Source: Pelagicoccus sp. SDUM812005 | GTDB taxonomy: Bacteria; Verrucomicrobiota; Verrucomicrobiia; Opitutales; Opitutaceae | DNA: 64,000 nucleotides | Assembly: GCF_031127875.1 (NCBI RefSeq) | Contig: NZ_JARXIA010000008.1 | Coordinates: forward strand, 186,001-250,000 | Direction of reading: 5' to 3' | In this document: positions 3,001-51,778 of the stretch, piece by piece | Numbering within the stretch: position 1 is the first letter of the stretch | How the letters are laid out: each line of letters starts with the position of its first letter | Translations under genes and position numbers: made by a program | Notes under the pieces: model-generated | What the model was told of the DNA's origin: nothing | What the model saw: only the letters and a program-made list of their open reading frames with translations | The model's database searches: none

Positions 3001-4531
3001 GTGGCTTGCGCGATAGGAATGCGAGCGGAGTGTCGTCGCCCATGGATCCGATCGCTTCCATGGCGGATTCGGCCATTGGCTTGAAGATGATATCGTATTC
3101 ATCTTTCTCATACCCGAATGCCAGTTGGCGGTGGATATCCTCGTCTTCGGATTTCGAGATGCTACCCTGCGAGTCGGCGGAGTGATCCTGAATGTCGACG
3201 AGGTGTTCGCCGCACCACTTGTGGAAACGTTCGTCGCTGCCGATCTGAGCTTTGATTTCATCGTCGTCGAGGAAGCGATGTTCCAGCATGTCGATGGCGA
3301 GCATCTTGCCGGGGCCGAGTCGTCCGGTGCGGACCGTTTTCATATCGGTCTCGTCGATGAGTCCGAGTTCGGAAGCGAGCATGAAGGTGCCGTCTTCGTA
3401 GATCTTGTAGCGGGCGGGACGCAGTCCGTTGCGATCTAGGGAGGCGGCGACGTAGCGACCGTCGGTGAAGGCGATGGCGGCGGGCCCGTCCCAAGGCTCG
3501 AGCATGCAGGCGTGGTATTCGTGGAATCCGCGCAGGGTGTCGTCGAGCAGGGCATTGTTTTCCCAGGCGGGCGGCATCATCATGGTGACGGCTTCGAGAG
3601 CGGAGCGTCCACCGAGGGTGAGAAGCTCGAGGGTGTTGTCGAAACTGGCCGAGTCGGACATGTCCGGCTGGAGCATGGGCCGCAGGTCGGAGAAGCGTTC
3701 GCCCCAGATGCCGTGCACGTTCGAGTTCTCGCGGGCCCGCATGAGGTTGCGGTTGCCGCGGATGGTATTGATCTCGCCGTTGTGCGCCATCATGCGGAAC
3801 GGTTGGGCGAGGTGCCACTGGGGGAAGGTGTTGGTGGAGTAACGCTGGTGGAAGATGACGAAGTTCGTCGTGTAGCTGGGATCGCGCAGGTCGGGGAAGT
3901 ATTTGCGGACCTGCGGAGAATTGAGCATGCCCTTGTATATAATAGTGCGGCACGAGAAGCTGCAGATGTAGAAGTCTTGCAGCTGGGCCTTCTCTGCTTC
4001 GCGCTCTGCGGTCTTGCGAGCGAGGAAGAGCTTGCGCTCGTACTCTTCGACGCTCAGTTCGCCGGTCTTGGCAATGAGGGCCTGCACCATGTGGGGTTGG
4101 GTGCGGTCGGCCTTGCGTCCGAGGCTATTGGGATCGACTGGGATGTAGCGCCAAGCCAACAGGCTGAGGCCTTCCGCTTCGACGGCGGTCTCAATGATCT
4201 TGCGCCCGTGGGCTTGGGCGTAGTCGTCGTTGCGGGGGAGGAAGATGACGCCGACGCCGAGGTCTTCGTCGTTGAAGAGCTTTTTCCCTTGGTCTTCGAG
4301 GAAGTCGCGAAAGAGCTGGTGGGGAATCTGGGTGAGGATGCCGGCCCCGTCGCCGGTGATGGCATCGGCGTCGACGGCGCCGCGGTGGGCCAGGTTCTTG
4401 AGGGCTTGCAGCGACTTTTGCAGCAGCTCGTGGGAGCGTTCGCCATTGATGTTGGCGAGGAGGCCGACGCCGCAAGCGTCATGTTCATAGTCCTTTTTGT
4501 AAAGAAGCGGAGAAGCTTGAATCTGGTCCAT
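1..4531 (-). CDS. gltB: Glutamate synthase large subunit (3' end cut off)
   Basis: This is the large subunit of glutamate synthase, which moves the amide nitrogen of glutamine onto 2-oxoglutarate in the cytoplasm. Reading the minus strand from the ATG at 4531 gives an uninterrupted frame of about 1510 codons, close to the full family length, so only the last few residues lie outside the window. The order is an N-terminal class II amidotransferase domain whose catalytic Cys20 follows a 19-residue propeptide (KDYEHDACGVGL), a central domain, an FMN-binding TIM barrel (GGKSNSGEGGEE) and the iron-sulfur cysteines in the CHLNTCPVGVATQ segment, then a C-terminal GXGXG beta-helix. The small subunit gltD is not visible and may lie beyond the left edge. 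The glutaredoxin gene lies upstream on the same strand. Confidence 0.97.
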   Translation of the reverse strand, partial: MDQIQASPLLYKKDYEHDACGVGLLANINGERSHELLQKSLQALKNLAHRGAVDADAITGDGAGILTQIPHQLFRDFLEDQGKKLFNDEDLGVGVIFLPRNDDYAQAHGRKIIETAVEAEGLSLLAWRYIPVDPNSLGRKADRTQPHMVQALIAKTGELSVEEYERKLFLARKTAEREAEKAQLQDFYICSFSCRTIIYKGMLNSPQVRKYFPDLRDPSYTTNFVIFHQRYSTNTFPQWHLAQPFRMMAHNGEINTIRGNRNLMRARENSNVHGIWGERFSDLRPMLQPDMSDSASFDNTLELLTLGGRSALEAVTMMMPPAWENNALLDDTLRGFHEYHACMLEPWDGPAAIAFTDGRYVAASLDRNGLRPARYKIYEDGTFMLASELGLIDETDMKTVRTGRLGPGKMLAIDMLEHRFLDDDEIKAQIGSDERFHKWCGEHLVDIQDHSADSQGSISKSEDEDIHRQLAFGYEKDEYDIIFKPMAESAMEAIGSMGDDTPLAFLSRKPRLLYTYFRQLFAQVTNPPIDSIRERSVMSLNMFLGGRLGLFEDLPQSAGFVKTNSPVLFNNELNALFDVKFLKDRVVRLDATYNVSLGTAGLETAIKDLISRAQDAVESNAAKLIILSDRNVSKNRIAIPMLLAIGAVHQHLVKTGYRMKCDLVAETGEARDVHQIACLLGFGANAVNPYIALAIMTNFAERGEIEGVDAKTAANNYRTAIDKGLLKIMGKMGISTLFSYCRAQMFEAIGISQEVIDDCFVGTPSPIGGIGYELIAQEAHDRHKRAYDPELTAELESAGYYKVIRNGGEFHGWNPKVVGGMHRFLKTRKKEDYDNYRQQSDEHQPYAIKDLLRIKYPDSGVDISQVEEVEDIRRRFCTAGMSLGALSPECHETLAIAMNRIGGKSNSGEGGEEPRRYSLLENGDNASSAIKQVASGRFGVTAEYLASAKEIEIKIAQGAKPGEGGQLPGHKVSPLIAKLRFSVPGVTLISPPPHHDIYSIEDLAQLIFDLKEVNPRAKVCVKLVSSSGVGTVAAGVAKAYADVILVSGHDGGTAASPLSSVKHAGSSWEIGIAETHQVLMMNGLRNRVTLRTDGGMKTGRDIIIAAILGAEEFNFGTSAMIAASCAMFRVCHLNTCPVGVATQRDDLRAKYKGTAENVINFFNAVAEDVRYYLAKLGVRKLDHLVGRTEFLEQIDDPENPKTATVNLSGLLHDPDPSGEAPRIHTRPRNERLGFDGSLDNTIIQESHDVVVGRAASFSGKYRVGNTDRCLGTKLSGEVAYVRGSNHLPPGSIDLVFKGTAGQSFCTLLTHGIKVTLLGEANDYVGKVMSGGEIIIRPGEEQTYDWTQNTLLGNTCLYGATGGNLFAAGLAGERFGVRNSGAIAVVEGVGDHACEYMTGGLVVCLGKTGTNFGAGMSGGLAFVYDADNTFKNYYNPAMIDIERLGDSGEIDALKKVVEAHLENTQSPHAKTLLDDWQKTISKFWKVVPKPSTPDTPKNVLKLEELSIPTLN

Positions 4532-5283: not shown

Positions 5284-6345
5284 ATGGCTAAAGGCAAAAC
5301 CAACCCCCTCCCTTCTTCTGACGATCGCGAAAAGAACGTCGAACTCGCTATCTCGGCGATCACCAAGCAGTTCGGCGAGGGATCGATCATGCGACTGGGC
5401 AGCGGCTCGAAGCTGGACGTGGACGTGATCTCCACGGGTTCCATCTCGATCGACTTGGCCCTTGGGGTCGGCGGTTTGCCGCGCGGCCGCATTTGCGAAA
5501 TCTACGGTCCGGAATCTTCGGGTAAGACGACCATGTGTTTGAGCCTGATCGCGGAAGCCCAGCGCAAGGGCGGCTTGGCGGCCTTCATCGACGTGGAACA
5601 TGCCCTCGACCCGAAGTACGCTCGCAAGCTCGGCGTCAAGGTGGACGACCTTTTGGTTTCGCAGCCGGACTCCGGCGAAGACGCTCTCAACATCACCGAG
5701 ACCTTGATCCGTTCCAACGCGATCGACGTGATCGTGATCGACTCGGTGGCAGCTCTCGTTTCCAAGAACGAGCTCGATGGCCAGATGGGAGACGCGACGG
5801 TGGGCTCGCAAGCTCGCTTGATGAGCCAGGCGATGCGTCGCTTGACCGGTATAGTAAGCAAGACCAAGTGCATCTGCCTGTTTACCAACCAGATCCGTGA
5901 AAAGATCGGTGTCATGTTCGGCAGCCCCGAGACGACTCCTGGCGGTCGCGCCCTCAAGTTCTTCGCTTCCGTTCGCATGGACATTCGCCGAATCGGGCAA
6001 ATCAAGGACAACTCTGGCGTGGTGACGGGAAACCGGACACGCATCAAGTTCGTGAAGAACAAGGTTGCGGCCCCGTTCACCGAAGCGGAGTTCGACATCA
6101 TGTACAACGAAGGCATCTCCCGCACCGGATCGATCGTGGACTTAGGCATCGAGCACAAGGTGCTGGAAAAGAAGGGAGCTTGGATCTCCTACAACGGCGA
6201 TCTCATCGGCCAAGGCCGCGAAGCTGCCAAGACTTTCCTTTCCGAAAACCCGGAGGTGTTCGAGGAGATCTCGGTGAAGATTCTCGAGACGGTAAATCCA
6301 GACCTGCTGGAGAAGAAGCAACTCGAGGAATCGGCAAGCAAGTAG
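5284..6345 (+). CDS. recA: Recombinase RecA
   Basis: RecA forms ATP-dependent filaments on single-stranded DNA, drives strand exchange and triggers LexA self-cleavage. The 353-residue protein has the full family length. It carries the Walker A motif GPESSGKTT near residue 77, the L1 and L2 DNA-binding loop regions, the [15 protein letters not shown] segment, and [17 protein letters not shown]. The start is the ATG at 5284, matching the usual N-terminus. It stands alone between a divergent glutaredoxin gene and its own terminator. Confidence 0.99.
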
Positions 6346-6382
6346 GCTTGCCTCCCGCGAGGACGTCGTTCTTTTCTTTCTC

Positions 6383-6410
6383 AAAGGCCGCTTGTCAAAG
6401 CGGCCTTTTT
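6383..6410 (+). terminator. Intrinsic terminator after recA
   Basis: An 11-bp perfect stem (6383-6393 with 6398-6408) with a GTCA loop and a run of T ends the recA transcript 37 bases after its stop codon. Confidence 0.9.
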
Positions 6411-6487
6411 GTTGGATGGGTAACGGGATCAATCGAAGGGGTAGCCCTCTCGCTGGCGCCTCGGAACGGGACTTAAGAAGTTAGTGT

Positions 6488-7846
6488 ATGGAAAATACGG
6501 ATACAATAACAGCTCTAGCTACGCCTAGCGGCGAATCGGCAATTGCGTTGATACGCGTGACGGGGCCTTTGTGCGAAACGATTGCGAGGGAAGCTTTTTC
6601 CCTCGCGAAGTCCCCTGCCCCGCGCCGGGCCTGCCATGGCGGCTTTCGCGACGTCGCGGGAGAGCTTTTGGACGACGTGGTCTATATCCTCTTTCGCGGT
6701 CCCAAGTCGTACACTGGCGAAGACGTGTTGGAAATCAGCTGTCACGGCAATCCCCTGATCGCGACCCGCTTGCTGGAGGATTTGCTGGCCCGGGGCTGTC
6801 GCCAGTCGGAACCCGGCGAATTCACGCGTCGCGCTTTCCTCAATGGCCGCATGGACCTGACCCAGGCCGAAGCGGTTATGGAACTGATCCAAGCACGCAG
6901 CGACCGAGCTATCCGTGTGGCTAACAATCAGTTACGTGGAAATTTCGGCCGCCAGCTCGATCAGCTGAAAATGCGTCTGCTCGCAACGGTTGCGACGATC
7001 GAAGCTTATATAGACTTTCCCGACGAAGACCTTCCACCCGAGCAGAAAAAGGCGGAGATCGAGGCCATCCGCTCGGTGCTGGGCTTTTGCAGCCGCATCA
7101 TCGACAGCGGAAAGTACGCGGCCTTTTTGCGTGACGGGGTCAAGACCCTGATCCTCGGCGAGCCGAACGCGGGCAAGAGCTCCCTGCTCAATTGCTTGCT
7201 CGGCTTCGAGCGGGCGATCGTGAGCGACGAGCCGGGCACTACGCGGGACTTCATACGGGAGCGCGTGATGCTTGATGGGCACTGTCTCCAATTAATGGAT
7301 ACAGCAGGACTGCGTGAAGCGACCAGCGGAATCGAGCGCGAAGGAATCCGCAAGACAGTGGAGCTGACCGAGGAAGCCGACCTTTTCTTGCTGGTGATCG
7401 ACGGTACCCTCCCCTGCCCTGAGCTTCCCGAGGAAGTTTCGAAGCATATCAACGCACAGAACTGCATCGTGGTGCAAAACAAGTCGGATTTGGGAGAAAT
7501 GCGTCCCCTACCCGCTCCCTTGTCGGACTTAACTCAGGTTTCGCTGTCAGCTCTGTCGGGCACCGGCTTGGAGGACTTGAAGGCGGCTGCGGTTGCCATG
7601 ATCGATGCCCACCTTGCTCAAGATCAGGACGATTTGATTTTGGTGAATGCTCGACACAGCACGGCCCTCAAGGAATTGGCCGACTGTCTGGAGTCCGCTA
7701 TTCGGAACTTCGAGGCCGGAGAGCCGGCGGAGTTCGTAGCCAGCGAGCTTCGCGGCGCGGTGGAGGCGATTGGACGCGTTTTGGGCAGGATCGATACCGA
7801 AGACATGCTGGACGTGTTGTTTTCCAGCTTCTGCATCGGCAAATAG
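6488..7846 (+). CDS. mnmE: tRNA modification GTPase MnmE
   Basis: MnmE works with MnmG to place 5-carboxymethylaminomethyl (or related) groups on wobble uridine 34 of certain tRNAs. The 452-residue protein has the N-terminal formyl-tetrahydrofolate-binding domain, a helical domain, an inserted Ras-like G domain with G1 motif GEPNAGKSS and G3 motif DTAGLR, and the diagnostic C-terminal CIGK, whose cysteine is catalytic. The length is normal. Its partner mnmG begins 63 bases downstream on the same strand. Confidence 0.98.
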   Translation: MENTDTITALATPSGESAIALIRVTGPLCETIAREAFSLAKSPAPRRACHGGFRDVAGELLDDVVYILFRGPKSYTGEDVLEISCHGNPLIATRLLEDLLARGCRQSEPGEFTRRAFLNGRMDLTQAEAVMELIQARSDRAIRVANNQLRGNFGRQLDQLKMRLLATVATIEAYIDFPDEDLPPEQKKAEIEAIRSVLGFCSRIIDSGKYAAFLRDGVKTLILGEPNAGKSSLLNCLLGFERAIVSDEPGTTRDFIRERVMLDGHCLQLMDTAGLREATSGIEREGIRKTVELTEEADLFLLVIDGTLPCPELPEEVSKHINAQNCIVVQNKSDLGEMRPLPAPLSDLTQVSLSALSGTGLEDLKAAAVAMIDAHLAQDQDDLILVNARHSTALKELADCLESAIRNFEAGEPAEFVASELRGAVEAIGRVLGRIDTEDMLDVLFSSFCIGK

Positions 7847-7909
7847 AGCCGATTCTGGGGCGTACGAAGCTGCTTGAGCTTGTAGCCCCCTCTCCTATCG
7901 TCCCCGTCC

Positions 7910-9760
7910 ATGAGCGGAATGCTGGATGAGTACGATGTGATAGTTTGTGGGGCGGGACACGCTGGATGCGAGGCCGCTTTGGCTGCTGCCCGCATGGGGG
8001 CCCGGACCTTGGTTTTGAGCGGCAATATCGACACGATCGCTGCGATGAGCTGCAACCCCGCGATCGGCGGCGTGGCCAAAGGGCAAATTGTGCGGGAAAT
8101 TGACGCTCTCGGCGGCGAGATGGCGGTGAACGCCGACGTTTCGGGGATCCAGTTTCGTTTGCTGAACGCTTCCAAGGGCCCAGCCGTGCAGTCTCCCCGG
8201 GCTCAGTGCGACAAGAAAGTATACGCTCTGCGTATGAAACACGTGCTGGAACTGCAGGAAAACCTTTCCATCTTCCAGGCTACGGTTACGGGACTGATCT
8301 TCAAAAACGGCAAGGTGGTAGGATGCAAGACCAACTTGGACGTGGATTTCTACGGAAAGACCTTGGTGGTCACTACCGGAACCTTCCTGCGAGGCTTGAT
8401 GCACGTGGGAAAGAACAAGACCGAAGGCGGACGGATGGGCGATTATTCCGCCAAGACGCTTTCCGGAAGCTTTCTGGAGGCCGGCATCGAGCTCGAGCGC
8501 CTGAAAACCGGTACGCCGCCGCGGCTGCTCGGACGTACTATCGACTTTTCGGGACTTGAGGAACAAAAGGGCGACGAAACGCCAGCCTTGTTCGGTTTCT
8601 ACGACACGCGGGGAGAAAAGGATCTGTTCCACGTGGAACAACGCGGAGAACAATTCGCGGGCTGGAAGCCGGGAACGGACCAAGTCTCCTGTTGGATCAC
8701 TTACACGTCGAAGGAAACCCAGCAGATCGTGAACGACAACCTGCACCTGTCGGCTATGTACGGAGGCGAAATCGAAGGTACGGGCCCGCGGTATTGTCCC
8801 AGCATCGAGGACAAGTTCGTTCGTTTCGCGGAAAAGACGCGTCATATGCTGTTTTTGGAGCCGGAAGGGCGGAACACCAACGAGTATTACGTGAACGGCC
8901 TGTCCACCAGCCTGCCGTTCGGAACGCAGCTGGAGATGCTGCGTTCGATCGATGGGCTGCAAAACGTGCATCTTTTGCGTCCCGCCTACGCGGTGGAGTA
9001 CGATTTCGCTCCTCCGACCCAGCTTTATCCTCACCTCGAATCCAAGAAGGTTGAGAATCTCTTTTTTGCGGGCCAAATAAACGGAACTTCCGGCTACGAG
9101 GAAGCGGCGTGCCAGGGGCTTGTTGCCGGGGTCAATGCGGTGCTGAAGGCGAGGGGAGAGGAGCCGATGGTGCTGAAGCGTCACGACGGCTACATTGGAG
9201 TCTTGATCGACGACCTGGTGACGAAGGGAACCAAGGAGCCCTACCGCATGTTCACGAGCCGAGCGGAGTATCGCTTGCTGTTCAACCACGGCAGCGCGGA
9301 GTTGCGAATGCTGGAGCATGCGGCGGCTCACGGATTGGTCTCGGACGAGCGTCTGCAGCGAATGAAAGCCAAGAAGGCTAACGTCGAAAAGTGGGTCGAG
9401 TGGTTGGAGAAGAACCGTCGCGATACGGCCACTTGGGCGACTCATATTCGCCGTGGGCTAGGGGAGGGCGAGCTGCCTCCTGAGTTAGCGACCTTGGAGA
9501 AAAGTACGCTCGAACAGGTATTGTATCGGGCCAAGTACGCGGGCTATCTCGAGCGCGAAACCAGGCAAATCGCGAAGCTCAAGGACGTTGAAAAGATCAA
9601 GATTCCGGCCGATTTCGACTATTCGAAGCTCAATGGACTGCGTTTGGAGTCGATCGCGAAGTTGAGCGAGACCCGACCTGCAACTTTGGCCCAAGCGGGC
9701 CGAATTAGTGGTGTGAACCCGTCTGACATCAGTATTTTGATGATTGCATTAAGGTCCTAA
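7910..9760 (+). CDS. mnmG: tRNA uridine-5-carboxymethylaminomethyl enzyme MnmG
   Basis: MnmG (GidA) is the FAD-dependent partner of MnmE in wobble uridine modification. The 616-residue protein starts with an FAD dinucleotide-binding motif (VIVCGAGHAGCEAA), carries the family signature SCNPAIGGVAKGQ, a second conserved block NGTSGYEEAACQG, and the C-terminal helical domain ending near GVNPSDISIL. A second ATG nine bases downstream is an alternative start. A 16-bp parS-like palindrome lies inside the coding sequence at 8625-8640. Confidence 0.98.
   Translation: MSGMLDEYDVIVCGAGHAGCEAALAAARMGARTLVLSGNIDTIAAMSCNPAIGGVAKGQIVREIDALGGEMAVNADVSGIQFRLLNASKGPAVQSPRAQCDKKVYALRMKHVLELQENLSIFQATVTGLIFKNGKVVGCKTNLDVDFYGKTLVVTTGTFLRGLMHVGKNKTEGGRMGDYSAKTLSGSFLEAGIELERLKTGTPPRLLGRTIDFSGLEEQKGDETPALFGFYDTRGEKDLFHVEQRGEQFAGWKPGTDQVSCWITYTSKETQQIVNDNLHLSAMYGGEIEGTGPRYCPSIEDKFVRFAEKTRHMLFLEPEGRNTNEYYVNGLSTSLPFGTQLEMLRSIDGLQNVHLLRPAYAVEYDFAPPTQLYPHLESKKVENLFFAGQINGTSGYEEAACQGLVAGVNAVLKARGEEPMVLKRHDGYIGVLIDDLVTKGTKEPYRMFTSRAEYRLLFNHGSAELRMLEHAAAHGLVSDERLQRMKAKKANVEKWVEWLEKNRRDTATWATHIRRGLGEGELPPELATLEKSTLEQVLYRAKYAGYLERETRQIAKLKDVEKIKIPADFDYSKLNGLRLESIAKLSETRPATLAQAGRISGVNPSDISILMIALRS
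8625..8640. other. parS-type ParB-binding site inside mnmG
   Basis: The sequence TGTTCCACGTGGAACA is a perfect 16-bp palindrome that matches the Bacillus parS consensus TGTTnCACGTGAAACA at 15 of 16 positions. Sites of this form recruit ParB and lie near the replication origin in many bacteria. ParA and ParB genes are not in this window. It sits in frame inside mnmG. Confidence 0.75.
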
Positions 9761-9919
9761 CTTGTTGAATATAAATAAAATAAGTAAAGTTTTTACAATT
9801 GAGATTGGCGTAGAAAGTTCGTTTGCGGGGCACGGTTCGCTACGTCACTGAATTGTAACGCAGCTGCGGTTGCGCTCCGACTTTGTCTCGTAACAATCGG
9901 GTTCTTATTTATTACGCTT

Positions 9920-10618
9920 ATGGTAGCTATGGATGACTCAAAGAGAATTTTGGTGGTAGACGACGAAGTCGATGTGACTGAGTTGTTGAGCTACCATCTA
10001 CGGCAACGCGGCTATGAAGTCCGGACTTTGAACGATTCCCGTTTGGCTCTCGAGACCGCTCGGCAGTTCAGGCCCGAGCTCGTCGTGCTCGATATCATGA
10101 TGCCGGATTTCAGCGGTTTGCAGGTTTGTCGCTTGATGCGGGCCGACTCGTCCTTGAAGGAGATACCTATCATCTTCTTGAGCGCGAAGACGGAGGAGGG
10201 CGATCGGATCGATGGCTTCGAAAGCGGCGCTGACGATTATGTCTGCAAGCCTTTCAGTCCAAAGGAGCTGATGCTGCGCGTGTCGGCGATCCTGAAGCGT
10301 AGGGGAGAGACCGAGGAAGCGAAAATTCTCGAGGTGAACGGAATCCGCATGGACGTGGAACATCATCGCGTCGAAGTGGAATCCGAGGGTGTCGACTTGA
10401 CGGCTACGGAGTTTCGCTTGCTGAAGCTGCTTCTCGAGGAAAGGGGCAAGGTCCAGACCCGTGAAACGCTTCTCCAGAAAGTGTGGAACTACGAGAACGA
10501 CATCGAGACGCGCACGGTGGACACTCACATGCGTCGCTTGCGTGAAAAGCTCGGCAATGAGGCCTCTTGGCTTGAGACCGTTCGTGGGGTGGGCTACCGC
10601 TTAGTTGAAAGCCGGTAG
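9920..10618 (+). CDS. phoB: PhoB-type response regulator
   Basis: This is an OmpR/PhoB-class DNA-binding response regulator of 232 residues. The receiver domain has the acidic pocket VVDDE, phosphoacceptor Asp58 in VVLDIMMPDFSG, and the conserved Lys in CKPFSPKEL. The C-terminal winged helix carries LTATEFRLLKLL and the TRVDTHMRRLREKLG-type recognition region ending VRGVGYRL. The kinase gene follows ten bases after the stop. A second ATG at 9929 is an alternative start. The 159-base gap upstream begins with an AT-rich stretch (9762-9800) and probably holds the promoter. The name rests on similarity and on its kinase partner; no pst genes are in view. Confidence 0.87.
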   Translation: MVAMDDSKRILVVDDEVDVTELLSYHLRQRGYEVRTLNDSRLALETARQFRPELVVLDIMMPDFSGLQVCRLMRADSSLKEIPIIFLSAKTEEGDRIDGFESGADDYVCKPFSPKELMLRVSAILKRRGETEEAKILEVNGIRMDVEHHRVEVESEGVDLTATEFRLLKLLLEERGKVQTRETLLQKVWNYENDIETRTVDTHMRRLREKLGNEASWLETVRGVGYRLVESR

Positions 10619-43915: not shown

Positions 43916-44899
43916 CTAGTCGAGCCCCGCCTTCTTGCGGAGGATGGTTCGGGTGGCTTGGGCGGATTCCTTGAGGTCCTTCTCGCTCCAGCCGCCTTTT
44001 GAGGAGGCGCTCGGGTAGAGGAAGGAACAGGTTTCGTCCTTGTCGGAGATGGACCAGGTTATCCAGCTGATCTTGCGTTCTTCGGCCCAGTCCTGCCACG
44101 TTTGCCAAGCTTCGTAGTCCATGGGGCCGTCGCCGGAGGCTTCCATGCCGGCGGATTCGGAGATAAAGATGGGAGCGCCCTTGCTGAGGGCGTAGTCGCC
44201 TCGTTCGCGCAGGTAGTCTCCATGGGTGGCTGCGTAGTAGTGCAGCGTATACATGATATTCGAGACACCTTCGATTTGGTTGTCCGCTACGATGTGCAGG
44301 TCTTGGTCCCAATGTGGATTGCCGACGAGTATTATGTTGTCCGGATCGATGGCGCGGATGGTGGCGATGACTTCTTCGGAATAGGCTTTCACTTCCTCCC
44401 AGGAGTCGTCGACCGGCTCGTTGTAGATTTCGTATATGATGTTTGGATACTTTCCGTAGCGGGTAGCCATGTCGGCGAAGAAGGTTTTGGCCAGATCCGA
44501 TTCGAGGTGGTGGCTGTGGAAGTCGATGATGACGTAGACGCCGCTTTCGATGGCCCCGTCGATGACTTTGGAAATGATTTCGACAGCCTTTTTCGGTTCT
44601 TCGTTGTAGGTGAGTTCCGGCTCCTCGTAGTGGATGCCCATGGCGGCGCGAACGACGTCCACGCCCCAGTCTTCCTTCAGCCACTTTACGCTGTCCTTGT
44701 TGTAGAAGCGCGGCCACCAGTTGTGCCAGCCGTAGCTTACCCCGCGCAGCACTACGGCCTCGCCGGCCTCGTTTACCAGTTGGGTCCCCTCCACGCGGAG
44801 CTGCGGAACGGAGGGCGGAGGGGTGGTTTCGGTGCGCTGGCAAGCGGAGCTCATAGCGAGAATGGCAAGGAGAGTGAGGAGATTTGTCGCGAGTTTCAT
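43916..44899 (-). CDS. GH5 family glycoside hydrolase, lipoprotein
   Basis: The 327-residue protein begins with a lipoprotein-type signal (MSSAC, Cys20) and a short Pro-rich linker, then a GH5 TIM barrel. LRGVSYGWHNWW and IIDFHSH are typical, Glu161 in YEIYNEP is the acid/base and Glu248 in IFISESAG the nucleophile. This is the layout of cellulases and related endo-beta-glucanases or mannanases of the outer surface. No carbohydrate-binding module is attached. Confidence 0.93.
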   Translation of the reverse strand: MKLATNLLTLLAILAMSSACQRTETTPPPSVPQLRVEGTQLVNEAGEAVVLRGVSYGWHNWWPRFYNKDSVKWLKEDWGVDVVRAAMGIHYEEPELTYNEEPKKAVEIISKVIDGAIESGVYVIIDFHSHHLESDLAKTFFADMATRYGKYPNIIYEIYNEPVDDSWEEVKAYSEEVIATIRAIDPDNIILVGNPHWDQDLHIVADNQIEGVSNIMYTLHYYAATHGDYLRERGDYALSKGAPIFISESAGMEASGDGPMDYEAWQTWQDWAEERKISWITWSISDKDETCSFLYPSASSKGGWSEKDLKESAQATRTILRKKAGLD

Positions 44900-45231: not shown

Positions 45232-46257
45232 ATGAAAATACGAAGCGAAAACGCACCAGCCGGAGACCGCAGCTCGGGCCGGTTCAAAATTTGCGGAACA
45301 GGAATTTGTTTGCCGCAGAAGGTGGTGACAGCCTCCGAACTGGACCGTTTGATCGGCAAGCCTGATGGCTGGACGGCGCGGCATACCGGAGTGTTGGAGC
45401 GGCGTTGGGTCGAGGGAGAATTGCAGTCGGAGTTGGGCGCGGCTGCGGCTCGAGCCGCGTTGCAGGAGGCGGGACTCGATTTGGGAGCGGTGGATGTGTT
45501 GATCGGCGCGAGTGGCGTACCGGAACAGCCTATTCCTTGCACGGCGGCAAGGATCCTCGCGGAGCTCGATCCAGCTGCGACGGAGGTAGCGGCTTATGAC
45601 CTGAACGCGACCTGCCTTTCCTTTCTGGTGGCATTCGATCATGCGGCTCAGTTGATCGAGACAGGGCGAGCAAACTGCGTTTTGGTGGTTTCTTCTGAGA
45701 TTGCCTCGCTGGGTTTGGATTTCTCGGAAGCCGAAAGCGCAGCCTTGATGGGGGATGGTGCGGCGGCGGTTTTGTTGCGCAGGGAAGAGGACGGGGGGCG
45801 TGTATTGGCTTCGCGGATGCAAACCTTTCCGGAAGGCATAGCGTTTGCGGAATTGAAGGGAGGGGGCACGCGACACCATCCGACGCGTTGTACCTTTCGC
45901 AAAGAGGATCATCTGTTCCACATGAAGGGGAAGGAGCTTTTTCGCTTGGTCTCGCAGCATTTGGGGCGGCAGGTCGCAGCTCTGATGGACGCGGAAGGGA
46001 TTTCTTGGAGCGGCATCAAGGCGGTGCTGGCCCATCAAGCCTCGGGCCCTGCCGTGGAGCTGCTGGGCAATCGGCTTGGCATACCAGAGGAGAAGCTGGT
46101 CCGAATCTATCCCCGTTGCGGGAACACGATTGCTGCCAGCTTGCCGATGTGCTTGCACGAGCTTCGACAGAGTACGGCTCTGGAGTCGGGAGACCGGGTT
46201 CTCTTCATAGGAACGTCGGCGGGCGTATCCATTGCTTCCTTGCTTCTAGAGGTTTAG
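45232..46257 (+). CDS. Ketoacyl-ACP synthase III-like enzyme
   Basis: The 341-residue protein is a FabH-type thiolase-fold condensing enzyme. The catalytic triad is intact: Cys128 in DLNATCLSFL, His268 in VLAHQASG and Asn298 in PRCGNTIAASLP. It should join an acyl-CoA or acyl-ACP to a malonyl or second acyl unit. Its place as first gene of a five-gene cluster with a reductase, a hydrolase, an ATP-grasp ligase and an acyltransferase, and not with fatty-acid genes, argues for a secondary product. The family also holds OleA-like and quinolone-type enzymes, so the substrate is open. Confidence 0.88.
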   Translation: MKIRSENAPAGDRSSGRFKICGTGICLPQKVVTASELDRLIGKPDGWTARHTGVLERRWVEGELQSELGAAAARAALQEAGLDLGAVDVLIGASGVPEQPIPCTAARILAELDPAATEVAAYDLNATCLSFLVAFDHAAQLIETGRANCVLVVSSEIASLGLDFSEAESAALMGDGAAAVLLRREEDGGRVLASRMQTFPEGIAFAELKGGGTRHHPTRCTFRKEDHLFHMKGKELFRLVSQHLGRQVAALMDAEGISWSGIKAVLAHQASGPAVELLGNRLGIPEEKLVRIYPRCGNTIAASLPMCLHELRQSTALESGDRVLFIGTSAGVSIASLLLEV

Positions 46258-46268
46258 AGGAATTGCTT

Positions 46269-47255
46269 ATGAAAATCGGAATCACGGGAGCGACCGGTTT
46301 CTTGGGGAGCCACTTGTGCGCTGTATTGGGAAAGGCAGGACATGAGGTGCGGGCTTTCGGCAGGAACCGCGGCAAGGGAATGGCGCTTGAGGGAGGCGGG
46401 GCATGTTTTGTCGCGGTTGACTTGCGGGATGCGGATGGGCTGGCTGCTGCCTTTCGCGGCCTAGACCTGGTAATCCATGCTGCGGCGCTTTCGGCGGTTT
46501 GGGGCAAGTACGAGAGTTTCTACGAGAGCAATGTCGTGGGAACGGAAAACGTGTTGGCGGCCTGTCGGAAGTGCGGAGTGGGAAAGCTGGTCTACGTTTC
46601 CTCGTCGAGCGTGTATTTCGATTTTAAGGACAGGTTTTCGATAAGAGAGGAAGATGCGGTAGCCAAGCCATCTCCTTCGGCCTATACGCGTTCCAAGCTG
46701 GAGGCGGAACGGAGAATCCAGGCCGCGACGGGCATCGATTGGATCATTCTGCGGCCTCGAGGAATCTTCGGCCCGGGTGATACTTCCATCATCCCGCGGG
46801 TCCTGAGGATCGCCCAGCGGGGTTGGTTTCCCTTGGCGAGGAAAGGAGAGGTGTTGGTTGACCTCACCTATGTAGGCAATCTGGTTCGGGTGGTGGAGCT
46901 CTGCTTGACCGCCAAGGCCGGCGCTTGGAATCAAGTCTACAACGTTTCGAATGGTGAGCCGGTGGCGACGGGGGACTTTTTCGACCAGTTAGTAGAAGGT
47001 TTAGGCTTAAAGGTTCGAAAAGTGGATACAGCCGCTTTCTTGATCCGTGGCGCAGCGACTTTGGTGGAGCTCGCGGCGAAGGGCTTGCGGCTGGGAGAGC
47101 CATCCATTACGCGTTACACGGCAGGTTTGCTTTGCTGCCATCAAACCTTGGATATTGCCAAAGCTCGAAACTTGTTGGGGTACGCGCCGGAGATTTCGAT
47201 CTCGGAAGGTTTACGGCGAACAGTCCGAGCTATGAAAGGGGATGCGGATGCATAA
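46269..47255 (+). CDS. NAD-dependent epimerase/dehydratase family protein
   Basis: The 328-residue extended short-chain dehydrogenase has the Rossmann motif GITGATGFLGSHL, the active-site Ser near SSSSVYF, and the Tyr139-x3-Lys143 pair in AYTRSKLEAE. The overall form is that of 3-beta-hydroxysteroid dehydrogenase or OleD-like reductases, so it may reduce the keto group made by the ketosynthase. GAGGA upstream of the ATG at 46269 fits a ribosome-binding site, 11 bases after the ketosynthase stop. Confidence 0.88.
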   Translation: MKIGITGATGFLGSHLCAVLGKAGHEVRAFGRNRGKGMALEGGGACFVAVDLRDADGLAAAFRGLDLVIHAAALSAVWGKYESFYESNVVGTENVLAACRKCGVGKLVYVSSSSVYFDFKDRFSIREEDAVAKPSPSAYTRSKLEAERRIQAATGIDWIILRPRGIFGPGDTSIIPRVLRIAQRGWFPLARKGEVLVDLTYVGNLVRVVELCLTAKAGAWNQVYNVSNGEPVATGDFFDQLVEGLGLKVRKVDTAAFLIRGAATLVELAAKGLRLGEPSITRYTAGLLCCHQTLDIAKARNLLGYAPEISISEGLRRTVRAMKGDADA

Positions 47256-48081
47256 GATCGACACGGTTCGCTTCTTTGCGGCGGGAAGTTGTTTTCAAAA
47301 GGAGGGGCTTAGCTTGCGCGGAGGAGCTTGGCGAGATGTCGAGTTTCCGGCGGTTTGCGCGGTGTTTCGGCATCCCCAGATCGGTTGGGTTCTCTATGAT
47401 ACGGGGTATGATCCTTGTATTTATGCGTCGAATACGAAGCTCTCACTGAAATGGTATGCGAAATTCATGAAGGTGAAAGTATCGCAGCGCTCAAGCGTGG
47501 TTGCGGGGCTGAAGCGCTTGGGCCTGGCTCCGGACGACATTGCGTTGGTGGTGCTCTCTCATTTTCACCCCGATCATATCGGTGGAGCTCGATCCTTTTC
47601 GAAGGCAAGGTTTCTGTGTTCACGCGCGGGATACATCGCTGCGTGCACGAAGCCGAAACGACTGGGCTTTCATCGGGAGTTGCTTCCGGACGATTTCGAG
47701 GAGCGTTGCGAATTCGTCGAAGACAGGTCGCCGAGCAGCGAGCACGTTTTGCGGGGGCTGGGCGGTGTGTATGACGTTTTTGGTGACGGGCTTGTTTTGG
47801 GCGTGCTGTTGGACGGGCATGCTCCGCGTCAGCTTGCTTTGTTGGTTCGAGGGAATGCTCGGAGTTGCTTCTTGGTGTCGGATGCGGCCTGGAGCACTCG
47901 GGCGATTCTCGAGAACCGACCTCCGCATTCGATCACCCGTTTGATACAGGATGATTGGCAAACCCTATTGAGAAATTTAAAGCAGCTAAATCGCTTGGCT
48001 TGCGAAAACCCTACTTGGCGTTTCGCTCCTTCTCACTGTAGGGAAAATTTGGCGACAGGGGAGTGTCGTTTGCAGGATTGA
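47248..48081 (+). CDS. MBL-fold metallo-hydrolase
   Basis: The protein has the metallo-beta-lactamase-fold zinc site: HFHPDHIGG, a downstream DGHAPRQL, an Asp in SDAAWSTRAI and a final His in APSHCREN. The set resembles the quorum-quenching lactonase and related hydrolases, so lactone or thioester hydrolysis is plausible. The start may be the ATG at 47248, with GGGG about seven bases upstream, or the one at 47242; either overlaps the previous gene. Its stop overlaps the ATP-grasp start by one base. Confidence 0.87.
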   Translation: MHKIDTVRFFAAGSCFQKEGLSLRGGAWRDVEFPAVCAVFRHPQIGWVLYDTGYDPCIYASNTKLSLKWYAKFMKVKVSQRSSVVAGLKRLGLAPDDIALVVLSHFHPDHIGGARSFSKARFLCSRAGYIAACTKPKRLGFHRELLPDDFEERCEFVEDRSPSSEHVLRGLGGVYDVFGDGLVLGVLLDGHAPRQLALLVRGNARSCFLVSDAAWSTRAILENRPPHSITRLIQDDWQTLLRNLKQLNRLACENPTWRFAPSHCRENLATGECRLQD

Positions 48082-49193
48082 TGAAAGCGGGGGATGAGTT
48101 CGTTGTTTTGATCACGGGTGGTCGTTCGCCGGTGGCCTTGGAGATGTGTCGCATATTCGGTAGGGAGGGAGCTCGAGTGATCGTTGCGGAGAGTAGCGGC
48201 GGTTTTTTGTGTCAGGCGAGTCGCTTCGTGGCTGCGTTTCATAAGGTTCCCTCGCCCCGCTTTCAGACTGAAGCGTATGTCTCGGCCTTGCTCGAGATCA
48301 TGAGAGAGGAAGGGGTGGATCTCCTGGTTCCGACTTGCGAGGAGGTTTTCTATATCTCGAGGTTTCGGGAAAGGCTAACCGAGGCGGGGCGTGTTTTTGC
48401 CCCGGACTTTGCGTGTATCGAAGCCTTGCACCGCAAGGATTGCTTCGTGGAGTGGGCCGCGGAGATCGGATTGCCGGTTCCGTGGACGGCGCTGTGTGGC
48501 GAGGCGGTATTGGGAGGATTGAGCAAGGTGGATCGTTTTGTGCTGAAGCCGGTGTATTCAAGATTTGGTTGCGAAACGATATTGCGGCAGGGAAGCGATA
48601 TCGCCCTGGCGAACGACGGTCGGGCTTGGGTCGTGCAGGAGTTTCTAGAAGGAGAGGAGCTGCATAGCTACGCGATCGCTCAGGATGGCCGCATCTTGCA
48701 GAGCGTGTTTTATCGCGGCCTGGCCAAGGAAGGGGCAATGGGGCCGAGCCTCGCTTTCGAGGAGGTGGATTGCCCTGCTGGCGACGCTTGGGTGAGGCGG
48801 TTCGTGGAGGAAATCGGTTTCACGGGCCAGATCGCCTTCGACTTCATACTAGGCGTGGATGGAGTGGCGCGAGCGATCGAATGTAATCCTAGGGCGACCA
48901 GCGGCTTGCATCTATTGTCGGAGGGCTCTGGCGTCTACGATGCGATCGTAGTGGGGATTTCCGGTGAGACCAGGAAGCGGAAGCTTCCCAACAAGGGCTT
49001 GCTCCTGCCGAGTCTGTTGTCAGGGGCGAAGGGGGACTTTGAGGATGTCGTCTTTCGATGGGACGATCCCTTGCCTGCAATGGCTCAGTTTCTGACGCTG
49101 GCGTATTTTGGAGGGCTAGCACTGCGGAGTCGGAGGTCGCTGGCTGCGGAGATGGTTCATGACTTTTGTTGGAACGGAGGGGCGATTGAGTAA
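48081..49193 (+). CDS. ATP-grasp ligase
   Basis: The 370-residue protein has the three-domain ATP-grasp layout: N-terminal VLITGGRSPVALEMCRIFG, then FVLKPVYSRFGCET with the ATP-binding Lys156, VVQEFLEGEELHS, and the metal-binding AIECNPRATSGLHLL with Glu267 and Asn269. These enzymes make acyl-phosphates and join the acid to an amine or thiol. The ATG at 48081 overlaps the upstream stop as TGATG and is chosen over a GTG at 48063. It ends inside the next gene. Confidence 0.9.
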   Translation: MKAGDEFVVLITGGRSPVALEMCRIFGREGARVIVAESSGGFLCQASRFVAAFHKVPSPRFQTEAYVSALLEIMREEGVDLLVPTCEEVFYISRFRERLTEAGRVFAPDFACIEALHRKDCFVEWAAEIGLPVPWTALCGEAVLGGLSKVDRFVLKPVYSRFGCETILRQGSDIALANDGRAWVVQEFLEGEELHSYAIAQDGRILQSVFYRGLAKEGAMGPSLAFEEVDCPAGDAWVRRFVEEIGFTGQIAFDFILGVDGVARAIECNPRATSGLHLLSEGSGVYDAIVVGISGETRKRKLPNKGLLLPSLLSGAKGDFEDVVFRWDDPLPAMAQFLTLAYFGGLALRSRRSLAAEMVHDFCWNGGAIE

Positions 49194-50283
49194 GCGGGTA
49201 GAGGGCGAGGAGGCGTGGTCCGAGTTTCTGGAGCGGCTTAGCGAGCGGGGGGCGCCGGCTTACGTTGCTAACTTGAAAGCGGAGGTTCGTTCGCTAGAAG
49301 TGGGGAGCCTACGGCTTTCGATCGTGTATCCGGAACGCGGTTACGCAAATTGCTACGTCGGGTCGGTGCGGGCTCAGTATGTGGATTACGCTCGGTATGA
49401 GATCGATTCGAGGAAGCTTGGTATTTTGGGGACGATTCTGAAGGGGTTCCTCAAGGGAGTCGATGCGTTGATGAGGCTTGCCGCGAGCGAGCGGACGGTG
49501 TTCGTGAACAATCGCTTGCTTTCGACCAACCTCTATCCTGCCGGCGTGGAAAGGGAGCTTGCAGCGATTCGCGATCGCCTGCTGGGGGAAGGGGGAGAGC
49601 GGGCGATCCTGTTTCGCTCTCTGGCTGGGAGCTGCAACGCTGCTTTAATCGCTGCGTTGAGGGAGGCGGGCTTTCGGGCGCTGGCGAGCCGGGAGGTTTA
49701 CCTTTTGGATACGTCTTCCGGAGAGCATCGCCGTCGCTCGAATTTTTTGAAGGATCTGGCGTTGCTGGAAGGGTCCGGGCTGGAGCGGGTACCCGGAAGC
49801 CAATTTTCGTCAGCGGATTTCGATCGGGCGCGAGAACTTTACGGGAAGCTCTACTTGGAGAAGTATACGGCCTTGAATCCGCGGTTTACGGAAGCGTTCC
49901 TGCGGGAGGGAGTGGAGACGGGGTTCTTGCAGCTAGTGGGCTTGCGCGGCGAGAAGGGGCTGCTCGGCGTGCTCGGCTACTATCGTTGCGGCGATTGGAT
50001 CACGGCTCCGATTCTTGGATACGATACGGAATTGCCGGTAGAGCTTGGATTGTATCGACAGCTGACGGCCTTGCTCACGTTGGAAGGGGAGCGCCTCGGC
50101 TGCCGGATTCATCGCAGTTCCGGGGCGGCGGCTTTCAAGCGCTCGCGCGGGGCGAAGCGCGAAATCGAGTACAGCTACGTTTACGTGGAGCACTTGCCTT
50201 GGTGGCGGCGTTGGGCGTGGCGGACGTTTTTGGCCTTGGTGAACCGCGTGGGACGTTTCGCCTTGGATCGAATCGATGCCTAG
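49159..50283 (+). CDS. GNAT/FemAB-like putative acyltransferase
   Basis: The 374-residue protein has no clear single-family match. The C-terminal half resembles GNAT or FemAB-type acyltransferases: FLREGVETGFLQLVGLRGEKGLLGVLGYY and a following TAPILGYD strand. The end is amphipathic and basic with Trp and Arg. A TTG at 49186 with GGAGGGG just upstream is a second possible start and would cut the overlap with the ATP-grasp gene from 35 to 8 bases. As fifth gene of the cluster it may transfer an acyl group to the ligase product. Confidence 0.72.
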   Translation: MTFVGTEGRLSKRVEGEEAWSEFLERLSERGAPAYVANLKAEVRSLEVGSLRLSIVYPERGYANCYVGSVRAQYVDYARYEIDSRKLGILGTILKGFLKGVDALMRLAASERTVFVNNRLLSTNLYPAGVERELAAIRDRLLGEGGERAILFRSLAGSCNAALIAALREAGFRALASREVYLLDTSSGEHRRRSNFLKDLALLEGSGLERVPGSQFSSADFDRARELYGKLYLEKYTALNPRFTEAFLREGVETGFLQLVGLRGEKGLLGVLGYYRCGDWITAPILGYDTELPVELGLYRQLTALLTLEGERLGCRIHRSSGAAAFKRSRGAKREIEYSYVYVEHLPWWRRWAWRTFLALVNRVGRFALDRIDA

Positions 50284-50392
50284 GGGCGTGTTCTTTTGTG
50301 TGAGTGGAAGAAAGCGGGGTAAATTGGCTGGGGCGGCCGCAAATCGGTGTTTGTGACTTGGCATACCCTTTTTTGTGGGGATGTTGCGAATT

Positions 50393-51778
50393 ATGAAGAC
50401 TTTTCCAGACGGATTCCTGTGGGGCACGGCTACGGCCGCCTACCAAATCGAAGGCGCGGCCGCGACCGATGGGCGTGGGCCCAGCATTTGGGACGCCTTT
50501 TCCCACATCCCGGGCAAGACGGCCGAGGGCCACACCGGCGACGTCGCTTGCGACCACTACCATCGCTGGGAGGAGGATATCGAGCTGATGAAGCGAATGG
50601 GAGTGGGCTGCTACCGTTTCTCGATTTCCTGGTCGCGCATCCAGCCGCAGGGCAAGGGCGAAGTCAACGAGACGGGCATCGCTTTCTACAACAAGCTGAT
50701 CGACGGGCTGGTAGCGGCGGGCATCACGCCTTGGGTGACACTCTTCCACTGGGACTTGCCTTTGGCCTTGCAAATGGAGCACGACGGATTGCTCAACCCC
50801 GAGATCGCCGATCGCTTCGCCCAGTACAGCCGGATCTGCTTCGAGCGTTTCGGGGATCGGGTGAAGAATTGGATCACGCTCAACGAGCCTTGGTGCAGCT
50901 CATTTCTCGGGCATGGCAACGCTTACTTCGCCCCCGGGCGCGCCTCCGCGGACGAACCTTATGTGGCAGCCCACAACTTGCTGCGGGCCCACGCCTATAT
51001 CGTGGACGTGTATCGTCGCGAGTTCCAAGCCGAGCAAAAGGGACAGATCGGCATCACCAACAACTGCGATTGGCGGGAGCCGGCTAGCGACTCCGAGGGG
51101 GACAAGGCCGCGGCGCAGCGGGCTCTCGAATTCTTCCTCGGATGGTTCGCGGATCCGGTTTACTTCGGCGACTACCCGGCGGTCATGCGGGAGCGCGTGG
51201 GCGAGCGGCTGCCTCAGTTCACCCCTGAAGACGCCAAGCTGCTGAAAGGGTCGTCCGACTTCTTTGGCCTCAACCACTACACGACCATGATCGCCTCCGA
51301 GCCGAAGCAGGAAGTGAGCGGCACGGGGGACATCAAGGGCAATGGCGGCATGATGGAGGACCAGCAAGTCGAGCTGGCGGGGGACCCCTCTTGGGAGCAG
51401 ACCGATATGGGCTGGAACATCGTGCCTTGGGGATGCCGCAAGCTCTTGGAGTGGATCGATGCCCGCTACGGCCATCCGCCCATCTACATCACGGAAAACG
51501 GCTGCGCCATGCCCGGCGAGGACGACCGCGAGACGGCGCTCAACGACACCCGTCGCGTGGAGTTCCTCAAGGGCTATATCGGAGCCTGCCACGAGGCCAT
51601 CCAGAACGGCGTCGACCTGCGTGGATACATGTGCTGGAGCATGATGGACAATTTCGAATGGGCGCTGGGATACACGCGTCGCTTCGGCCTGCATTGGGTC
51701 GACTACGAAACGGGCGAGCGCCAGCCCAAGGCTTCGGCCAAGTGGTACGCGGAAACGGTTAAGAACAACGGCTTCTAG
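50393..51778 (+). CDS. GH1 family beta-glucosidase
   Basis: The 461-residue enzyme cleaves beta-glycosides. It starts with the family signature FPDGFLWGTATAAYQIEGA, has acid/base Glu165 in TLNEP and nucleophile Glu368 in YITENG, and ends with GYMCWSMMDNFEWALGYTRRFGL. There is no signal peptide, so it should act in the cytoplasm on imported disaccharides. Earlier in-frame starts at 50375 (GTG) and 50381 (ATG) exist, but the family start favours 50393. Confidence 0.96.
   Translation: MKTFPDGFLWGTATAAYQIEGAAATDGRGPSIWDAFSHIPGKTAEGHTGDVACDHYHRWEEDIELMKRMGVGCYRFSISWSRIQPQGKGEVNETGIAFYNKLIDGLVAAGITPWVTLFHWDLPLALQMEHDGLLNPEIADRFAQYSRICFERFGDRVKNWITLNEPWCSSFLGHGNAYFAPGRASADEPYVAAHNLLRAHAYIVDVYRREFQAEQKGQIGITNNCDWREPASDSEGDKAAAQRALEFFLGWFADPVYFGDYPAVMRERVGERLPQFTPEDAKLLKGSSDFFGLNHYTTMIASEPKQEVSGTGDIKGNGGMMEDQQVELAGDPSWEQTDMGWNIVPWGCRKLLEWIDARYGHPPIYITENGCAMPGEDDRETALNDTRRVEFLKGYIGACHEAIQNGVDLRGYMCWSMMDNFEWALGYTRRFGLHWVDYETGERQPKASAKWYAETVKNNGF

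Follow-up and report, generated by a model that had tools for sequence, protein, structure and literature searches.

Five genes at positions 45232-50283 of a 64,000-nucleotide stretch of Pelagicoccus sp. SDUM812005 DNA, referred to here as the window, are a real, conserved biosynthetic operon encoding a ketosynthase III (KS), an OleD-like short-chain reductase (SDR), a metallo-beta-lactamase-fold (MBL) hydrolase, an ATP-grasp ligase and a protein of predicted double-GNAT fold. The window spans positions 186001-250000 of contig C107 in a genome of 6.65 Mb and 118 contigs. Our reading, held tentatively and at just short of an even chance, is that the operon makes an amino-acid-bearing, lipid-like small molecule by way of a chain-fusing KS, the SDR, the MBL hydrolase, the ATP-grasp ligase and a tRNA-dependent transferase. 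Gene content, conservation, family membership, predicted folds, catalytic residues and the position of the KS in a tree were observed, and from these we infer the reactions, their order, the substrates and the product. A first-pass annotation of the window, made from sequence alone, had proposed a compact pathway to an acylated, perhaps amino-acid-conjugated or lactone-derived small molecule; it is partly supported, the product being read here as derived from acyl chains and probably conjugated to amino acids.

A genome of the same genus (G294) holds all five genes in identical order, with proteins 60-68% identical to those of the window; as this order is kept at a nonsynonymous divergence (dN) of 0.26-0.34 and a synonymous divergence (dS) of 1.3-4.8, the latter near or past saturation, the shared set is more than chance. 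With the window genome counted each time, searches for the ATP-grasp protein gave hits in 3 of 288 genomes of the phylum (E 1e-10) and 5 of 200 of the family (E 1e-20); the GNAT-fold protein occurs in 3 of the 57 relatives searched (E 1e-5) and the KS in 2 of 8 genomes of the genus (E 1e-60). The cluster is therefore accessory. Its arrangement varies: in G181 the genes lie on a single strand in an order differing from that of the window, in G010 they are divergent, and in G363 they are divergent like those of G010, with a Rieske gene added. In the KS tree described below, the KSs of two same-family genomes join that of an Opitutaceae bacterium at 100/100.

From a contig scan with an alignment of the ATP-grasp family (A1), the best 80 of 574 relatives were kept, and their gene content was called by profile thresholds chosen in this analysis; they represent the nearest kin of the window protein and not a family-wide rate. 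KS, SDR, MBL and ATP-grasp occur together at 63 of these 80 loci, named as members of Bacillota, Chloroflexota, Pseudomonadota, Verrucomicrobiota, Chlamydiota and Bdellovibrionota. Both the adenylate-forming, F390-synthetase-related enzyme TIGR02304 and the GNAT-fold protein accompany them in 32 cases, TIGR02304 only in 19, the GNAT-fold protein only in 11 (ten named Chloroflexota, one named Opitutaceae) and neither in one (L057, a 4.3 kb contig). Of the remaining 17, four pair ATP-grasp with GNAT but lack the core, seven have ATP-grasp alone (truncated by the end of the contig in three), and six hold partial sets (L029, L036, L051, L061, L076 and L078). Searches of plasmid records with the ATP-grasp and GNAT proteins showed that Paenibacillus, Roseateles, Pontibacillus (without GNAT), Paraburkholderia and Shinella have clusters built from these families, with window proteins 31-45% identical to their counterparts in Paenibacillus, Paraburkholderia and Roseateles; a Deinococcus plasmid record holds the ATP-grasp/GNAT pair only, and two Pseudomonas megaplasmids carry a diverged ATP-grasp gene together with TIGR02304, in one case also with MBL, and neither KS nor SDR. 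The first-pass annotation had suggested searching for the five families as a conserved neighborhood and had named a lack of co-conservation elsewhere as the result that would count against it; the set was found to be co-conserved, recurring across several phyla.

The TIGR02304 enzyme was not found in the window genome at E 0.001, other AMP-ligases not being sought. Among 12 other five-gene genomes, which include several metagenome-assembled genomes (completeness is 100% for G010 and 99% for G181), ten gave no match, and G010 and G333 (locus L046) gave 52.5 and 50.8 bits against a cut-off of 251.9, which both six-gene control genomes exceed. As all 12 fall below the cut-off, the five-gene form without TIGR02304 is real and present in two phyla. 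The earlier statement that the cluster has no AMP-ligase or carrier protein holds for the five proteins themselves, as judged by Pfam; the missing AMP-ligase is a trait of the five-gene form, most relatives having TIGR02304.

The KS matches the NCBIfam model PRK07204.1 at 333 bits, below its cut-off of 402; FabH-type models score 191-223 bits, of which TIGR00747 (FabH) gives 191.1 against a cut-off of 292.1. Among solved structures the closest are 4v2p, a deposited 'ketosynthase' taken by us to be MxnB, at 225 bits, and CorB at 212; FabH structures reach at most 163, PqsD 81, and chains presumed to be OleA-type from a reading of their names at most 59. Cys128, His268 and Asn298 are kept in 81 of 81 aligned KS rows, the alignment excluding L022, L036 and L105 (split, short or over-long) and a fused KS of the window genome (L002). 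This last protein, of 529 aa, at L002 184-1773 (contig C32 near 54933), joins an N-terminal lipoyl/E2-like part to a FabH-like ketosynthase. At the column of the OleA glutamate, the cluster KSs have Ile (53/81, including Ile101 of the window KS) or Leu (28/81), MxnB and CorB have Val, three FabHs have Phe, and the separate OleA-type KS of the window genome (L004; PRK09258, 442 bits) keeps Glu. In PMC4578411, OleA E117 and PpyS E105 are described as serving as a base from the partner subunit, with Val94 at this position in MxnB/CorB.

A tree against FabH, OleA and PqsD clades had been suggested in the first-pass annotation; the one built has 37 rows, namely 31 of the 81 cluster KSs, MxnB, CorB, three FabH and one OleA-type. 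A 99/99 branch separates the cluster KSs and MxnB/CorB from only four outgroup rows, and within that side MxnB/CorB fall with five KSs of Chloroflexota five-gene clusters at 100/99. The window KS thus groups with MxnB/CorB; because the outgroups are few, the claim concerns this grouping and does not extend to how deeply it divides from FabH. The earlier assignment to a FabH/OleA type is revised accordingly, as the KS lacks the OleA glutamate and PqsD and OleA-type structures score far lower. It is nonetheless conceivable, though rather unlikely, that the KS works as FabH does, extending one acyl starter with malonyl-acyl carrier protein without any chain fusion, after which the SDR would give a 3-hydroxyacyl product, the MBL enzyme would release it and amino acids would be added. 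The Cys-His-Asn triad is of FabH type, the OleA/PpyS glutamate is missing, FabH-type models still score as given above, and the published trees place MxnB/CorB inside the FabH clade of 284 KSs (PMC4578411) or MxnB, whose reaction is reported in vitro, between FabH-like and chalcone-synthase-type enzymes (PMC5724707). Against this stand the lead of 4v2p and CorB over the best FabH structure, the 99/99 branch shared with MxnB/CorB, and the replacement of the Phe and Ser of FabH at positions 101 (Ile/Leu) and 300 (Ile/Val/Met).

For the SDR, in which catalytic Tyr139 and Lys143 are confirmed, the best NCBIfam model is OleD (NF042422; 215 bits, cut-off 580 not reached). The profile of the MBL enzyme is nearest acyl-homoserine-lactone (AHL) lactonases and 4-pyridoxolactonase, with the dinuclear metal ligands of the AHL-lactonase type present; HxHxDH, His193 and Asp214 are kept in 22 of 22 rows and His265 in 20 of 22. 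Curated AHL-lactonase cut-offs are not reached (AttM, 60 bits against 390), and the substrate is likely a lactone or thioester. With a KS, an OleD-like SDR and a hydrolase together, and with a TIGR02304 enzyme in most relatives that might take the place of OleC, a modified OleABCD pathway to an olefin or beta-lactone could be imagined. OleB is, however, an alpha/beta-hydrolase and the window enzyme an MBL; the KS lacks the OleA glutamate, which the separate OleA-type KS of the same genome retains, and the window genome yielded no TIGR02304 enzyme at E 0.001, other AMP-ligases not being sought, so that such a variant appears extremely improbable.

The ATP-grasp ligase is best matched by NF005315 (PRK06849) at 281 bits, below the cut-off of 406, and Lys156 and Glu267 are kept in 34 of 34 rows. 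A Nostoc plasmid protein reaches 560 bits with the same model; its gene lies in the order 3-dehydroquinate-synthase-like, O-methyltransferase, ATP-grasp, one opposite-strand gene and D-Ala-D-Ala-ligase-like, which we take to be the mysABCD order. Comparison of the cluster ATP-grasp family with this MysC-context protein by hhalign gave a probability of 100% (E 2e-58, 27% identity), indicating by profile that the cluster enzyme is a distant MysC homolog. In a 34-row tree MysC sits on a long branch and its placement is uncertain. A profile search ranks 2pn1 first among solved structures, and the AlphaFold2 model, with a mean predicted local distance difference test (pLDDT) score of 88.4, is nearest by Foldseek to PylC, 2pn1 and L-amino acid ligases. 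This homology, and the building of pyrones from beta-ketoacyl chains by kin of the KS (PMC4578411 and PMC5724707), would also suit a pathway in which a 1,3-diketone formed by the KS is joined through its enol to an amino acid by the ATP-grasp enzyme, yielding a UV-absorbing, MysC-like enaminone; since the SDR would eliminate a ketone and the NF005315 cut-off is not reached, this is very unlikely.

The fifth protein was modeled by AlphaFold2 with a pLDDT of 91.5, and the predicted double-GNAT fold matches the tRNA-dependent aminoacyltransferases Sbb17, MprF and FemX by Foldseek and VIA-align. Phe326-Lys327 is present in 35 of 35 rows, Lys327 being the putative counterpart of FemX Lys305, and the Asn of DhpH-C is not kept. 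No FemAB or LPG_synthase_C Pfam match was found in the five proteins at E 0.1, and hhalign of the family against FemABX- and MprF-type templates of 3 and 2 sequences gave probabilities of 1.1% and 0.4%. The protein is predicted from its modeled fold to be a candidate aminoacyl-tRNA-dependent transferase, and the first-pass label of acyltransferase gives way, as the predicted fold is nearer to these enzymes than to acyl-CoA acyltransferases. Elsewhere in the window genome there is a gene (L112) for an MprF-like protein that contains an LPG_synthase_C domain.

The genes further appear to separate into parts. A KS-SDR-MBL-TIGR02304 core without ATP-grasp/GNAT in the fetched stretch is present in six records of the plasmid collection (L021, L022, L023, L026, L027 and L028); in the E. 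coli records L021 and L022 it has nar genes on one side and purU on the other (narI and purU in L021, core at 6191-10278). Of 5426 complete E. coli genomes, 672 contain DNA matching 80% or more of this 4.1 kb core, 670 on a chromosome and 2 on a plasmid, including one strain recorded as EcN, presumably Nissle 1917. In L022 (plasmid pBone4_5) the KS and TIGR02304 matches are each split across two open reading frames, and this copy looks broken. The reverse is also seen: Deinococcus (L013), three loci of Nonomuraea (L058, L063 and L106) and a Ktedonobacterales metagenome-assembled genome (L086) have ATP-grasp and GNAT but no core; an AMP-binding ligase gene follows the pair in L058 and L063, and a serine-hydroxymethyltransferase-like gene in L086. 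As this pair occurs alone and ATP-grasp is on the strand opposite KS in L012, L019, L025, L069, L070, L072, L101, L102 and L118, the data suggest two modules, one chain-making (KS, SDR, MBL, often TIGR02304) and one for amino acids (ATP-grasp, GNAT-fold, sometimes Rieske). A Rieske oxygenase gene joins the clusters L012, L025, L066, L070, L072, L080, L101, L102 and L118, and where scanned (L012, L118) its product is weakly like 4beta-methylsterol monooxygenase.

In L021 the genes after the core encode a PAP2 protein, a weakly OlsE-like protein (66.6 bits against a cut-off of 475) and an acyl-CoA desaturase, and the product is therefore probably a lipid. Together with the modeled resemblance of the fifth protein to the MprF lipid aminoacyltransferases, this neighborhood would fit an amino-acid-modified envelope lipid as the product of the window operon, in place of a secreted signal or antibiotic. 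Such a membrane aminolipid is distinctly improbable: Pfam gives no membrane enzyme family among the five proteins, no transmembrane prediction having been run, and the patchy spread of the cluster within the family is unusual for a structural lipid.

Returning to the small-molecule pathway, the KS would load an acyl chain from primary metabolism on Cys128 and condense it with another thioester, acyl or beta-ketoacyl, a chain fusion of the kind performed by MxnB/CorB. The OleD-like SDR would then reduce the beta-keto group to an alcohol, and the lactonase-like MBL enzyme may hydrolyze a thioester or lactone, releasing the product. The ATP-grasp ligase could phosphorylate a carboxylate, or a vinylogous acid, the group on which MysC acts, and couple an amino acid to it, and the fifth enzyme may use aminoacyl-tRNA to attach an amino acid at an amine or hydroxyl group of the product.

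The layout of the operon (Table 1) is as first annotated, with five intact forward-strand genes, and all catalytic motifs were confirmed, those of KS, MBL and ATP-grasp being kept across aligned relatives. An 11-base gap separates KS and SDR; SDR and MBL overlap by 14 or 8 bases, depending on whether MBL starts at ATG 47242 or 47248; MBL and ATP-grasp share one base in TGATG; and ATP-grasp and GNAT overlap by 35 bases, or fewer if GNAT starts later. An alternative GTG start for ATP-grasp at 48063 is possible. The flanking glycosyl hydrolase genes seem unrelated to the cluster. Elsewhere in the window, ARAGORN calls a 90-base tRNA-Ile at 4416-4505 on the forward strand, with no Rfam match in the window at the gathering threshold; the call is perhaps false or the tRNA unusual.

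Table 1. Features of the five-gene operon and its flanks, in window coordinates
Feature	Position	Strand	Basis and residues
KS, ketosynthase III (341 aa)	45232-46257	+	Pfam ACP_syn_III and ACP_syn_III_C; catalytic Cys128, His268, Asn298; Ile101
KS Cys128 codon	45613-45615	+	
SDR, OleD-like short-chain reductase (328 aa)	46269-47255	+	Pfam Epimerase/3Beta_HSD; Tyr139, Lys143
MBL, metallo-beta-lactamase-fold hydrolase, AHL-lactonase/4-pyridoxolactonase branch (279 aa)	47242-48081	+	Profiles, metal ligands
ATP-grasp ligase, PRK06849/MysC superfamily (370 aa)	48081-49193	+	NF005315; Lys156, Glu267, ECNPR
Double-GNAT-fold protein, candidate aminoacyl-tRNA-dependent transferase (374 aa)	49159-50283	+	AlphaFold2, Foldseek, VIA-align; Phe326-Lys327
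GNAT-fold protein Lys327 codon	50137-50139	+	
Divergent glycosyl hydrolase 5 (GH5) gene, upstream flank	43916-44899	-	Pfam
GH1 gene, downstream flank	50375-51778	+	Pfam

The enzyme kinds are known; as far as searched, in literature that held few subscription papers and no preprints, neither their combination nor a description of the cluster or its product was found, in agreement with the earlier remark that no described pathway could be named. Sets of KS, SDR, MBL and ATP-grasp recur over several phyla, and the KS-SDR-MBL-TIGR02304 core in the E. coli genomes counted above; no product is named in that literature. It is possible, at somewhat below an even chance, that these clusters form a widespread undescribed pathway class without carrier proteins or megasynthases of its own, in which the product of an MxnB/CorB-type KS is decorated by an ATP-grasp enzyme and a tRNA-dependent aminoacyltransferase, and that the myxobacterial pyrone KSs were recruited from a KS family near the five-gene Chloroflexota branch. 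If so, head-to-head chain fusion would be joined with tRNA-dependent aminoacylation, both of them rare chemistries, in five genes, a system small enough for whole expression, and the origin of the MxnB/CorB ketosynthases would be explained.

In comparison with known systems, the six-gene KS-ATP-grasp-SDR-MBL-TIGR02304-GNAT clusters (such as that of a Paenibacillus urinalis plasmid, L011) hold homologs of all five window genes at 36-45% identity and differ in the TIGR02304 enzyme that they carry. The mysC clusters of mycosporine-like amino acids have a homologous ATP-grasp enzyme (27% identity), whereas the window genes include no dehydroquinate-synthase-like or O-methyltransferase gene and the window enzyme stays below the PRK06849 cut-off. 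FemABX, MprF and Sbb17 share the double-GNAT fold predicted for the fifth protein, which has an invariant Phe-Lys pair that may correspond to theirs and no detectable sequence-profile similarity to them. OleABCD has in common a KS and an OleD-like reductase; in the window cluster the KS glutamate is missing and Pfam shows neither OleB nor OleC among the five proteins. Finally, MxnB and CorB, the pyrone ketosynthases of myxopyronin and corallopyronin, fuse two acyl chains into pyrones, and the window KS resembles them in sequence (38% identity), in its hydrophobic residue at the OleA-glutamate position and in Ile at 300; however, MxnB/CorB join chains made by megasynthases, and no megasynthase is encoded among the five genes of the window.

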